A stretch of DNA of 64,000 bases from Prochlorococcus sp. AG-402-O16 (GTDB lineage: Bacteria > Cyanobacteriota > Cyanobacteriia > PCC-6307 > Cyanobiaceae), in contig QCIY01000002.1 in the NCBI GenBank assembly GCA_003216415.1, positions 62,001-126,000 on the forward strand, given 5' to 3'. Positions 17,262-21,733 of this stretch are shown here, piece by piece. Position numbers and translations under genes: made by a program. Below the pieces are notes generated by a model. It made no database searches, had not been told where the DNA came from, and saw only the letters and a program-made list of their open reading frames with translations. Position 1 is the first letter of the stretch. The number at the start of each line of letters is the position of its first letter.

Positions 17262-17621
17262 ATGAAAAAGAAGTCTATTATTTATTCTGATTTATCAAAA
17301 AAACAACTAGAAAATCTTAAAGAATTTTACATTCAAAAAAAAGTTGAATCGATGAGTCATCAAGAGCTAAAAGAATATGTACTAGAAATTATTGCTCATC
17401 AGATAAACGATACTATTGGTAAAGAAGAAGAAATGGAAGCATGGAGAGAAATGTCAGATTTTTTTGGAGAACAATTTGAAATAATTATCTTAGAAGTACA
17501 ATCGAAATACATTGACGATAAAAACATTCTTGAAAAAGAAATAGATCCTCAGAAACAAAGAATAGAATTACTCGAAAGGAATAATTTAGATCAAGAGAAA
17601 AAGGATATGTGGGATGACTAG
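17262..17621 (+). CDS. hypothetical charged helical protein of the accessory region
   Basis: A 119-residue protein rich in Lys, Glu and Gln, predicted almost entirely helical. It has SDLSKKQLENLKEFYIQKKVESMSHQELKEYV near the N-terminus and a coiled-coil-like tail (KEIDPQKQRIELLERNN). It has no signal peptide, membrane segment or known catalytic motif. Its layout resembles small proteins I associate with Prochlorococcus genomic islands, but I cannot name a family. It stands alone just outside the left end of the tRNA-linked element, followed by 19-bp direct repeats. Confidence 0.65.
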   Translation: MKKKSIIYSDLSKKQLENLKEFYIQKKVESMSHQELKEYVLEIIAHQINDTIGKEEEMEAWREMSDFFGEQFEIIILEVQSKYIDDKNILEKEIDPQKQRIELLERNNLDQEKKDMWDD

Positions 17622-17940: not shown

Positions 17941-17951
17941 CTCCCCGGGCG
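17941..17951 (+). repeat. distal att copy (11 bp of the tRNA-Asn 3' end)
   Basis: CTCCCCGGGCG is identical and in the same orientation to 21613-21623, the last 11 bases of tRNA-Asn read on the plus strand. Similarity stops abruptly after the eleventh base. GC content is far above the surroundings, so a chance match is unlikely. It marks the end of the element away from the tRNA. Confidence 0.75.
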
Positions 17952-18019
17952 AAAGTCGGGTAGACCTTTCCTGATAGTGCCTGACTGAAGTTGATATAAA
18001 AATTCCATGAGTTTGAGAT
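17952..18019. other. left-end arm of the element (GC-rich, CCTGA direct repeats)
   Basis: The 68 bp between the distal att copy and the iterons are clearly richer in G+C than the flanks. They contain CCTGA twice at 10-bp spacing (17970-17974 and 17980-17984). A short stem, CCCG...CGGG, can form at 17944-17960. No reading frame is supported. It may hold recombination-protein sites or be a fragment of a structured RNA; I cannot decide. Confidence 0.4.
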
Positions 18020-18041
18020 ATATTCCCAACATATTACCAAC
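18020..18041 (+). repeat. left iterons: two 11-bp units overlapping the regulator's ribosome-binding region
   Basis: The units ATATTCCCAAC (18020-18030) and ATATTACCAAC (18031-18041) are followed directly by AT of the start codon at 18042. They differ by one and two bases from the ATTTTCCCAAC unit repeated four times near the other end. The location over the translation start suggests that whatever binds here could also control expression of the regulator. Confidence 0.8.
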
Positions 18042-18236
18042 ATGATCAATCAAGAAAACCGTCCCTTTCTAACTATTAAAGAAGTCTCAAAGTTAATTGG
18101 AATTTCAATATCAACAATAAATCGGTTAATAAAAAAAGGAGATTTTCCTGACAAAATAAAATTATCCCCTAGAAGAACAGTTTTAATGAAGTATGAAATA
18201 CAGGAATGGATCAATAAGAAAAAAATTAGGGACTGA
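18042..18236 (+). CDS. AlpA/excisionase-like helix-turn-helix regulator
   Basis: A 64-residue protein with the AlpA/MerR-type winged helix-turn-helix layout. FLTIKEVSKLIGISISTINRLIKKG (residues 9-33) is followed by FP...KLSPRRTVLMKYEIQEWINKK. This family includes phage P4-type regulators that activate integrase genes and small excisionases that direct recombination. Here it is the first gene inside the left end of the element, and its start codon touches the iterons. It plausibly binds those repeats to control excision or its own expression; that role is inferred. Confidence 0.82.
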   Translation: MINQENRPFLTIKEVSKLIGISISTINRLIKKGDFPDKIKLSPRRTVLMKYEIQEWINKKKIRD

Positions 18237-18328
18237 AAGATTGCATGATTATTATTAAAAAATATACAACAATCATCAATTTGCATAAGTTCGATACACT
18301 TTAGGTTTTTGAATTACTTCTAGAATTC

Positions 18329-21300
18329 TTAATTACTTTTTTTCAAGTTAATTCCAATACTACTTAAAAGATCAATCCTTTCCTGTGATAATCTATTTTT
18401 TTGGTTTGCTCTTTTCTGCGTTCGAATCCATTCGGCAAGAACTCTGTTGGTTTTTGGAGTTGGGAGAGTCTCATTTTTGGTAATAAAGTCTTTTAAATCT
18501 TCAAAACTTTGCAACCAATTTTCATTTAAAGGGTCCCAACTCCAATTGGGGGTACTTTCAAGTTTATCTATTTCATATTTTTCAAGATATTTTTTAGCAT
18601 ATCTTGCCCTCTGATCTCTCCTCCAACCTAATATATTTTTTATAGTATCTTCGTCTAGTAAATCCTTTTCTTCTAAATATATTAAATAAATATCAAATTT
18701 TTTATTCCATTTATATCTTTCTAAACTATCCCAATTCCAATGCTCAACTGCTTCAAGCATCTTTATACGCTCTGCAGTTAGCAAAATATTTTTTTCCCTA
18801 TATTGTTTCCTTTGTGTATATACCCATGATTTTAATGGTGGTTTTTCAGGGTAGGTATGTTTGTTTTTATGAGAAAACTTCTTTAACTCTTTAATATTAT
18901 TTTTAAAATCTAAATCTTTTTTATATTCCCAATGCCAATAAGTTAGTGATTCAAGTTTCTCAATTCTAATTTCTTCAAGATCACCATTTGAGTATATTGT
19001 TCTTTGCCTTTTACACCAACCACCCAAAGGCGTATTTTGAGGTGGATAGGTATGATGATTTTTCCCCTCATACTTTTTTAAATCAAAATAATTCTCATAC
19101 CATTCAGATTCTTCTTTATCCCACATCCACTCAGAAAGACTATTTAATTTATCAATTCTTTTTTGGTCTAATTCTCCATTTTTATATAATTGCCTTTGTG
19201 CTGTAACCCATGGACCTAATTTACTTTTATTTTGATGAGGACAAGCATGTCCATTATTAACTATAAAAGTTTTAAGTAATTCAAACTTTTGATTCCACTG
19301 AAAATCTTTTTCATCCCATATCCACTCAGGTATTTTATTTAACAACGAAATTCTATCTTCTGATAATTTATTTAATTTAAAGTTATATCTTTGTATTCCA
19401 ACCCATCTTCCAAACTCAAGATGAGAAATATTTCTTCCTTCATTATCTGCTAAGAATTTTTGAAATTTTCCATAATTTTCTAACCAATCATCTGATGTAT
19501 TCTCGATCAGTAAAGTATAAAGAGAATCATAAAATTCAGGATTAATATTATCTGGCAAATCGAAATAAATTTTTTCTAATCCTTTTTTTGTAATTTTTGT
19601 GATTTTCCTTCTTCCTAATTGAATTCTTAGTTCATCTATCTTCTCGAGCAGTTCATCATCTTGTGCTTTTAATGCAAGAATTACACTCCATACTGTTTGA
19701 AACTTAGTTGCGAGTATCTGTTTATCTAAATTCTTAATTTCATCCAAAAACACAGGGACAATTATAATTCCTTCTTTTTTATTGTCTGATTTTCTTATTG
19801 CTCTCCCTACTGCCTGAACGATATCAATAGCACTATGTTTTGGATCTACAAATGCAACACCATCGAGAGTTGGCACATCAACCCCCTCAGATAAACATCT
19901 TGCATTGGATAAAATAAAACAACTATTTTTTCCTACTGAATTAAGTTGTTGAATTTTTTCATCTTTTTCTGTGGCATTCATCTTACCTTCCACAAAGGAA
20001 GATGAGATTTTAAATCCCTCATCTAAATCTTGATTAAAGTTATCTAATACTCTTGGGAGATTATCAGCAAATACTTCTGCATGTTTAATTCGATTATGGA
20101 ATGAAATTAATTTTTGTATCTTATAGTTTTTTATTGATTTGATTATGGCAATAAAGGTTGCAAGACTCTCAGAGTCAAAAATATATTCTCCATTTGTTGA
20201 AATCAGATCTCTTTTAGAAATTTTTTGCTTAATTTCCTCATTATCAACTCCTACAATAATGACCTTATAGTTTGACAGAATATCTCCTTTTATAGCATCT
20301 GAGAAACTCAATCTATGCAGTACTTCTCCAAACAAATTTTTATCATCCATTGATGCAACAGCAATATTTTTTTCTTTAGATTTAGATTTAATTCTTGTAG
20401 ACAAAATTTTTGGAGTTGCTGTAAAAAATAGTTTCTTTGTTGTATTTATTTTTTTATCATCAAGAATATTTCCAAAATAACTTTCTTTTCTGCCACTACA
20501 GTTGTGTGCCTCATCTGCAATAGTTAAATCAAACTTAAACCCGTCAATTAATTTATGTGCATCACAAATCAATTTAGATGATTGATAAGTGGAGAAAACT
20601 ACCTTACATCCTGACTGAAGAAGAAATTCTTTTATATTTGATAAATCACTAGTAACGGAAATACCTAATTCAGAGGTATTTGTGATCCATTCATCTTTAT
20701 TTTTTTTATCTCTCGCAACAGTCTGATCTGAACAAATACATAACCATTTGAAAGTTTGTGATTTATGAGTGTTCCAATTCTTGACTGTTTGCCTTACAAG
20801 ACTTAATGAAGGTAGTAATACTAAAGTATTTTTAGCAAATAACTTTTCTTTAATCCAAAGCGCAGTAAGAGTTTTTCCAGAACCACATGCCATTATTACT
20901 TGTCCCTTATTAACTTTTTTTAGTCTCTTCAATACATCCTTAATCGCTTCCTTTTGATGAGGTTTAGCATCATATTTTTTGAGTGGCGAACCCAAATACA
21001 GGTTTTTAATAGAGGAAGGATAATTTATATCTGAATCTCTTAAGTCTTTTAATAAAATCCTTACGACTTTATGCCTTTTTAAAAGTTTATCGGCGTTGGG
21101 TCCAATTTTGTTCGTGCTAGAAATTAATAATTTTCCCTGAAATCTATCATCACTTGATTCTGCTATAAAACTGTTCAATTCATCCTTATTCAAATAATTT
21201 TCTGGAGAAAAGCATTTTGCCTGAACTGCCCACCTTTCACCATTTCTATGATGAAGGATTATGTCTACTCCACAATCAGTTCCCCACTCAGATCTTTTTG

Positions 21301-21451
21301 GGTAATCATCCCATCTCCATACTCCTTCAACTTGACTTGCCCATGTTGGATCAGTTTTTAGGAACCATAATGCGAACTTTTTTTCAAATTGATCTCCTCT
21401 GACATTACTATCAGCGTCTAACGAAGCATAAAATTCATCAAAGGTTGCCAA
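18329..21451 (-). CDS. nuclease-helicase with six helicase-associated repeats (candidate defence protein)
   Basis: A 1,040-residue protein. Residues 17-130 resemble a restriction-endonuclease-like fold, with GVD (Asp63) and QAK (77-79) as a Mrr-type D...QxK active site. Residues 160-560 are an SF2 helicase: Walker A ACGSGKT (188-194), DEAH (313-316), TATP (344-347) and QAVGRAIR (546-553). Residues about 654-1030 hold six 63-residue helicase-associated repeats (pattern W...F..L..F...LG.WV..QR..Y...L...RI..L). The architecture recalls type I/ISP or Mrr-like restriction enzymes, but no methylase or specificity subunit is adjacent. It is the main cargo of the element. Substrate and role are inferred. 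Confidence 0.85.
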   Translation of the reverse strand: MATFDEFYASLDADSNVRGDQFEKKFALWFLKTDPTWASQVEGVWRWDDYPKRSEWGTDCGVDIILHHRNGERWAVQAKCFSPENYLNKDELNSFIAESSDDRFQGKLLISSTNKIGPNADKLLKRHKVVRILLKDLRDSDINYPSSIKNLYLGSPLKKYDAKPHQKEAIKDVLKRLKKVNKGQVIMACGSGKTLTALWIKEKLFAKNTLVLLPSLSLVRQTVKNWNTHKSQTFKWLCICSDQTVARDKKNKDEWITNTSELGISVTSDLSNIKEFLLQSGCKVVFSTYQSSKLICDAHKLIDGFKFDLTIADEAHNCSGRKESYFGNILDDKKINTTKKLFFTATPKILSTRIKSKSKEKNIAVASMDDKNLFGEVLHRLSFSDAIKGDILSNYKVIIVGVDNEEIKQKISKRDLISTNGEYIFDSESLATFIAIIKSIKNYKIQKLISFHNRIKHAEVFADNLPRVLDNFNQDLDEGFKISSSFVEGKMNATEKDEKIQQLNSVGKNSCFILSNARCLSEGVDVPTLDGVAFVDPKHSAIDIVQAVGRAIRKSDNKKEGIIIVPVFLDEIKNLDKQILATKFQTVWSVILALKAQDDELLEKIDELRIQLGRRKITKITKKGLEKIYFDLPDNINPEFYDSLYTLLIENTSDDWLENYGKFQKFLADNEGRNISHLEFGRWVGIQRYNFKLNKLSEDRISLLNKIPEWIWDEKDFQWNQKFELLKTFIVNNGHACPHQNKSKLGPWVTAQRQLYKNGELDQKRIDKLNSLSEWMWDKEESEWYENYFDLKKYEGKNHHTYPPQNTPLGGWCKRQRTIYSNGDLEEIRIEKLESLTYWHWEYKKDLDFKNNIKELKKFSHKNKHTYPEKPPLKSWVYTQRKQYREKNILLTAERIKMLEAVEHWNWDSLERYKWNKKFDIYLIYLEEKDLLDEDTIKNILGWRRDQRARYAKKYLEKYEIDKLESTPNWSWDPLNENWLQSFEDLKDFITKNETLPTPKTNRVLAEWIRTQKRANQKNRLSQERIDLLSSIGINLKKSN

Positions 21452-21500
21452 TTTATATCTCTGATCAAATTAATATGACAATTTTACAGATTTTTAATGA

Positions 21501-21544
21501 ATTTTCCCAACATTTTCCCAACATTTTCCCAACATTTTCCCAAC
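21501..21544 (+). repeat. right iterons: four perfect 11-bp tandem units
   Basis: ATTTTCCCAAC is repeated four times without a break at 21501-21511, 21512-21522, 21523-21533 and 21534-21544. The array lies 49-93 bp upstream of the helicase start codon and 68 nt from the tRNA-Asn 3' end. It matches the left iterons in sequence, period and orientation. This is typical of binding sites for a recombinase or a directionality factor, and it could also act as an operator for the helicase gene. Confidence 0.9.
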
Positions 21545-21565
21545 ATTTATAAAAGAAAACATAAA

Positions 21566-21599
21566 AAAAGACCTCTAATGTATTTTCCTGAGGTCTTTT
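21566..21599 (-). terminator. rho-independent terminator carried by the element, downstream of tRNA-Asn
   Basis: GACCTC (21570-21575) pairs with GAGGTC (21590-21595), extended by flanking A/T pairs, with a 14-nt loop. On the minus strand the hairpin is followed by seven T. It lies 13 nt behind the tRNA-Asn 3' end and inside the right end of the element. It would therefore replace the terminator displaced by the insertion. On the plus strand it also ends in TTTT and may work both ways. Confidence 0.8.
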
Positions 21600-21612
21600 A
21601 TTTAAAATTGAA

Positions 21613-21684
<72 letters not shown>

Positions 21685-21733
21685 ATATAAAATGAATTTA
21701 ACTCTTTAAAGTGCCTTATGACAAGTAAAAGAA

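Follow-up and report, generated by a model that had tools for sequence, protein, structure and literature searches.

The 64,000-nt stretch of Prochlorococcus sp. AG-402-O16 analysed here (contig QCIY01000002.1, positions 62,001 to 126,000; hereafter the window) contains, at positions 17941-21623, a candidate mobile element bracketed by two direct, exactly matching copies of CTCCCCGGGCG, an attachment core also written CGCCCGGGGAG. These copies (17941-17951 and 21613-21623, both plus strand) delimit a unit of 3,672 bp. The integration target is tRNA-Asn(gtt) (21612-21685, minus strand), whose 3′ end includes the proximal core, and sequence search of the window and assembly identified the distal core as an exact copy of that end. 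At up to one mismatch the 11-mer has just two sites in the window (0.04 expected; 0 of 100 shuffles gave two), and in the whole 1.49-Mb assembly it occurs only at the two ends of the element. The original prediction of 11-bp tRNA-Asn copies flanking a 3.67-kb segment is therefore borne out, and profile searches agree with it that the segment holds only two genes, encoding an AlpA-type helix-turn-helix (HTH) protein and a 1040-aa nuclease-helicase, and no integrase.

The 64-aa product of alpA (18042-18236, plus strand) belongs to the AlpA/excisionase family (PF05930, 3.7e-11; NCBIfam excise, 1.5e-6, just short of the model cut-off) and is likely a recombination directionality factor. It shares its HTH family with directionality factors of the AlpA/VefA type, VefA being 37% identical to AlpA (PMC3014918), and stands in the window without its integrase. 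Comparison with five relatives shows purifying selection on alpA, with dN/dS values of 0.07-0.28; dS exceeds 1.5 for two of the five. The cargo gene (18329-21451, minus strand) encodes an Mrr-type nuclease (Mrr_cat_2), an SF2 helicase (ResIII/DEAD and Helicase_C) and five C-terminal HA repeats, with a nuclease-like QAK at residues 77-79 and helicase motifs GSGKT at 190, DEAH at 313 and TAT at 344. Its TTG start is also used by homologous open reading frames (ORFs) of three relatives (G058, G143 and G238; G numbers denote the 266 genomes of the genus surveyed and L numbers denote loci). Behind the tRNA end, a hairpin with a T-run (21563-21599, minus strand) appears by eye to be a terminator brought in by the element, and hairpins resembling it follow the core in other elements too.

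Between the cores and the genes lie direct repeats of TTCCCAACA that the original prediction did not include. Four tandem copies at 11-bp spacing occupy the proximal end (21504-21545, plus strand), and two at the same spacing occupy the distal end (18023-18042, plus strand), namely TTCCCAACA at 18023-18031 and TTACCAACA, with one mismatch, at 18034-18042; five of the six copies are intact. The last base of the distal pair is the first base of alpA, whose start is 91 bp from the distal core. These repeats look like integrase arm sites. In a lambda-like attP, arm-type sites flank the core on both sides, and circularization of the element would place its repeats in the same arrangement. A 17-bp motif pair searched at up to two mismatches is confined to the two ends of the element within the 1.49-Mb genome.

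At the same tolerance the repeat pair occurs in 5 of 266 genus genomes, including that of the window, and a reversed-pattern control gave none. The elements that it marks in G034 and G110 encode a 436-aa integrase; the G034 element sits at tRNA-Asn, and that of G110 was placed by its core and DUF7326 flank, the tRNA end lying off its contig. Both share with the window element the core, the arm repeats and ~93 bp of distal att sequence including the arms (84-85% identical), the flank between distal core and arms (17952-18022) being common to all three by alignment. The G128 pair belongs to a sibling unit of 1.3 kb that has alpA and a PD-(D/E)XK-type nuclease but no integrase; the G020 pair falls immediately beyond the distal core of a unit that contains an integrase and has a different code. 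We presume that the integrase-bearing elements at this tRNA-Asn locus are tycheposons.

The 436-aa integrase gives weak matches to Pfam integrase domains and matches an NCBIfam integrase model at 2.5e-14, below that model's curated cut-off, and a profile search of solved structures returned no match at E ≤ 1. An alignment read by eye indicates that it keeps R274, H371, R374, H401 and Y409 (R-H-R-H-Y). Homologues occur in 24 of 266 genus genomes, and at this locus the relatives have an AlpA ORF directly upstream of the integrase. Repeats at 11-bp spacing adjoin five integrases, those of G034 (the query), G110 (84%), G189 (74%), G020 (68%) and G049 (66%). Integrases of other lineages (L115, L116, L117 and L127) have repeats of TCCCAACA at a spacing of 12 bp, not 11 bp, ~500 bp upstream. 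Several integrase-bearing tRNA-Asn elements (L055 11014-11592; L058 10492-11097; L070) also carry a small gene that by eye is serine recombinase-like (GYWRCSTDAQDQERQIR or similar).

The genome of the window has no homologue of the 436-aa integrase at E ≤ 1. Its sole PF00589 match is a chromosomal gene with counterparts of 78-90% identity in 19 of the 24 further genomes sampled from the genus, and we disfavour this host recombinase as the mover, as it is widely conserved and one enzyme would be unlikely to read many arm codes. The conserved chromosomal tyrosine recombinase at L001 823-1992, which by eye precedes a cobO-like gene and pyrH, has relatives of 42-47% identity in 9 of the 15 further cyanobacterial genomes that were sampled.

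Across the genus the core is present in 216 of 266 genomes and in at least two copies in 66 (table counted by hand). Nine single-core loci with the DUF7326 gene no more than 360 bp from the core (G119, G023, G170, G146, G108, G201, G022, G155 and G054) are read as empty sites. The same host gene (17262-17621, plus strand in the window) is the fixed flank close behind the tRNA core in these relatives. The nine are 74-81% identical to the joined flanks of the window, and a tenth, G203, is 61.5% identical; G054 is closest by the sum of both flanks (~91% each) and retains an arm-like remnant. The empty sites for which the original prediction proposed a search in relatives thus exist: its two genes are not fixed at this place in all close relatives, nor is the 11-bp match missing from the relatives' junctions.

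From 90 fetched loci, chosen mostly for multiple core copies, we obtained 73 complete core-to-core units, that of the window included. Four contain an integrase (G049, G179, G081 and G020), and the other 69 have none; the 14.6-kb element of G034, a fifth integrase unit, spans two overlapping loci and was counted apart from the 73. The integrase-less units measure 169 bp to 7.2 kb (median 1,498 bp), and alpA is found in 23 of the 69. In 19 of the 23 its called start and the distal core are 91-94 or 104-105 bp apart, and in the others the distance is 30, 40, 117 and 169 bp. Some of these units recur, the recurring pairs being other units of the locus and not the window's own: core to core, the G049 and G265 units (623 and 644 bp) are 95.4% identical, the G003 and G143 units (986 and 976 bp) are 97.6% identical, and those of G094 and G143 are 88.7% identical. 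A search of the genus genomes found no integrase of the 436-aa type in G265, G003 or G143.

Taken with the arm repeats, these observations suggest that 17941-21623 is probably a non-autonomous, trans-mobilisable integrative element, a tycheposon-like relative with one defence-type cargo gene that is moved by an arm-reading helper integrase. As expected of an att element mobilised in trans, its recognition sites match those of a candidate helper's element: the arm unit and core are the same as in G034 and G110, and the distal flank is similar. The helper's tyrosine integrase would bind the arm repeats, the element's 'code', together with the two cores and would excise the unit in circular form, the element's own AlpA acting as directionality factor. 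The circle would then be reinserted at a tRNA-Asn 3′ end; every insertion would restore the tRNA end and bring a new terminator, and the helper need not remain in the genome. The original prediction had called the segment a minimal, trans-mobilised or decaying element. Its trans-mobilised part gains support from the core, arms and distal flank shared with integrase-bearing elements, from the empty sites and from the core-to-core recurrence, whereas decay is disfavoured for this copy, which retains intact cores, five of six arms, an intact alpA and an intact cargo ORF and whose alpA evolves under purifying selection.

The proposed arm code was surveyed across the complete units. In 49 of 62 elements the two ends have in common a 9-mer that includes three or more G or C; when the two ends come from different elements, the figure is 565 of 3750 pairs. 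Of 61 elements, 43 have tandem units at the distal end and 29 at the proximal end, versus 12 of 643 internal windows, and in 39 of the 61 (4/4 of those with integrase) a tandem unit is common to both ends. Three proximal plus two distal copies form the pattern of 17 units, 3 with integrase and 14 without. The codes of integrase units are TGTTGGGAA (G034/G110), TGGTCGGGA (G049/G189), TGGTGGGGA (G020) and GTTCTGGT (G179); for G081, TAGTCCA comes from the end-sharing analysis only, no tandem being seen beside its integrase. Of the 69 integrase-less units, 12 contain a sampled tRNA-Asn integrase's arm unit at least twice, versus 0 of 207 internal windows, although 5 of those 12 were matched at one end only and one (169 bp) was counted from overlapping ends. 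Among the 57 integrase-less units of 600 bp or longer, alpA is missing from 34, and in 26 of those the two ends have a tandem unit in common, which disfavours a role for the arms as AlpA sites only.

Several results weigh against mobilisation by an arm-reading helper. One mismatch sits in the second distal arm of the element. Among AlpA-bearing units, the window's own kind, the 9-mer is shared between ends in only 15 of 27, and a both-end tandem unit is found in 9 of 23 AlpA-only units versus 26 of 34 units with neither AlpA nor integrase. A three-copy test was failed by 26 of 73 units and passed by 20 of 274 control pairs. Further, 57 of 69 integrase-less units lack the arm unit of any sampled tRNA-Asn integrase, and codes with no sampled integrase are a gap in the argument; the arms could instead be AlpA sites, though 26 of the 39 units sharing an end unit have no alpA. 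A related integrase is present in just 5 of 55 genomes that hold integrase-less units, many of them incomplete single-cell assemblies. The window element has no near-identical copy among the fetched loci, its distal module being at most ~82% like others, and directly beyond its distal core ~60 bp diverge from the empty sites of relatives, so earlier insertions there are possible. Finally, the ratio of integrase-less to integrase-bearing units is biased, because counting complete units on single contigs favours short ones and under-counts integrase elements.

The strongest competing explanation, which we nonetheless consider unlikely, is a relic of the type termed a cis-mobilizable element (CIME): what remains of a larger element after loss of its integrase, now either fixed in place or able to move only in cis with a neighbour. 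This is the classical reading of integrase-less tandem islands (PMC5704250, PMC3146451); units of 169-257 bp with fused arms resemble deletion products, and G021 holds an integrase remnant with a stop. In a tree of AlpA proteins, five integrase-linked AlpAs form one clade (100/100) from which all 36 integrase-less AlpAs are excluded, a sixth integrase-linked AlpA being on a long branch. Because that clade holds no integrase-less AlpA, the window AlpA does not appear to be a recent leftover of the integrase-linked ones, though the clade is nested in a larger group with 12 integrase-less AlpAs (65 columns), a further point against our interpretation. Up to ~275 bp of att-arm-alpA sequence is common to the window and other integrase-less units (about 71-82%), of which G034 and G110 share just the first ~93 bp. 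The tree, this sharing and the low dN/dS therefore fit better with a long-standing lineage of integrase-less units, to which that of the window would belong, than with a recent deletion. The retention of alpA, cores and arms and the exact core-to-core copies among unlike neighbours likewise disfavour a relic.

The CIMEs and the module-less ssrA islands of Dehalococcoides, as described in the same two papers, do resemble the window element in keeping both att sites without integration or transfer genes, and tandem arrays at an RNA gene are a shared trait. Unlike them, the window element retains arm repeats and an AlpA gene. CIMEs move only in cis; some sibling integrase-less units stand singly with unlike DNA around them, which for those siblings points to action in trans. 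A number of 'naked' att units of 169-257 bp (L074, L084, L089, L178 and others) consist of two cores and a terminator-like hairpin with no evident gene, and several have adjoining arm repeats, as if cargo had been lost via end-repeat recombination.

It is considerably less probable that the segment is a stable piece of a genomic island, spread by homologous recombination of shared flanks, with the 11-bp repeats as traces of old insertions. Flanks are ~85-93% identical to those of the window in the best 45 matching loci, and in a fourth pair of units, G182 and G091 (92.6% identical over most of the unit), the left side matches as well. The other three pairs, however, stop exactly at the cores, with the adjacent 500 bp unmatched on both sides. 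Element identity can also far exceed that of the host DNA upstream of the tRNA, which is 66.9% for G049/G265 (against 95.4% for the units), 88.0% for G003/G143 and 72.1% for G094/G143.

AlpA-type regulators and tRNA sites are usual in phage satellites. The suggestion in the original prediction of a possible satellite, here one packaged by a cyanophage with AlpA as a helper-sensing regulator, found no support and is the least probable account, even though tycheposons are listed among marine satellite families in the review PMC11389934: neither gene is a packaging, capsid or replication gene, 50,697 phage records contain no DNA match to the element, and the cargo protein is only partially matched in 95 phage records, all below 60% identity and none covering 80%. 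Scans of IMG/VR for virion-derived sequence gave no related att junction, integrase or close AlpA, the 8 AlpA matches each being 33-38% identical; absence from these collections is weak evidence. One att-junction match (L239) lies on a contig of 64% GC and was read as chance. The arm pattern matched three stretches (L158, L159 and L160); L159 and L160 look by eye like unrelated phage genes and were likewise read as chance. The AlpA query in a scan of named genomes returned Prochlorococcus at 30 of 30 loci.

Beyond this copy, the tRNA-Asn locus may hold a pool of 'integrase hitchhikers', a generalization that we regard as evenly poised: att units of ~0.2-7 kb, some with AlpA, in which the arm code would fix which passing integrase moves each, and which often carry one defence system each (69 such units versus 5 integrase-bearing among the complete units read). 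They would be a tyrosine-integrase counterpart of miniature inverted-repeat transposable elements (MITEs) and integron cassettes. Tycheposons of Prochlorococcus, reportedly described by Hackl et al. in 2023, are similar to the window element in tRNA anchoring, att sites of the tyrosine-recombinase type and cargo, and the window element does show tRNA 3′-end integration with a duplicated core. A deep-branching tyrosine recombinase of its own is missing, with none in the element and no homologue of the locus's integrase in the genome. Tycheposons also have hallmark replication or packaging genes, whereas the window element has alpA and the nuclease-helicase only, and so a single cargo gene. At 3,672 bp it falls below their size range of 4-200 kb, as quoted in PMC10872708. 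MITEs and clusters of attC sites lacking integron integrases (CALINs) are likewise small units mobilised in trans by another element's recombinase (PMC11389934). The window element differs in having tyrosine-integrase att sites with arms at a tRNA, in place of transposon ends or attC (no search aimed at attC was made), flanking repeats that are tRNA-derived, and its own likely directionality factor. The literature found, which did not cover Hackl et al. 2023, describes no arm-coded, integrase-less class, and novelty is accordingly provisional. Such a pool would offer a streamlined ocean bacterium a concrete route to swap single defence genes without keeping a recombinase, and the arm code would predict, from sequence, the helper that moves a given cargo. 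Many of the tRNA islands called 'integrase-less', which are generally classed as relics, would become candidate live mobile units that can be listed by sequence.

The cargo of the window is most likely a restriction-type defence against phage. It matches the PADLOC model REase_MTase_IIG (5.6e-131) over residues 14-621 and shares the Mrr nuclease and helicase half with type ISP and IIG-like single-chain restriction enzymes. Unlike these enzymes, it has five HA repeats in place of a methyltransferase or specificity domain, neither of which was found by profile search of the 1040-aa protein, and the HA-repeat part may set DNA specificity. Nuclease-helicase homologues at L026, L027, L031 and L033 are 905-1341 aa long, the shortest possibly cut by contig ends, and the length difference seems to lie in the HA-repeat part. 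The units of G058 and G238, which have alpA, carry homologues of the helicase as cargo, as does that of G143, where the gene is reversed and the arm code differs. A homologous helicase cargo at L029 7713-11155 is reversed relative to that of the window, with arm code TTAGTGTAA and no alpA found; cargo thus seems to pass between att modules.

Of 12 cargo proteins of integrase-less units searched, mostly long ORFs, 9 matched restriction- or defence-type families: that of the window, a nuclease in G128, a type ISP enzyme in G111, a type I restriction R subunit in G147, two proteins from G258, a Z1 protein in G103, a cytosine methylase in G238 and a McrB-N/NOV protein in G127. The remaining three are beta-propeller proteins in G033 and G212 and an acyltransferase in G249. 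Small proteins are encoded in many of the other units. Large beta-propeller-repeat (SBBP/DUF5122) cargo was seen in the integrase-less units L080 and L079, and similar-looking long ORFs occur in L056 and L057.

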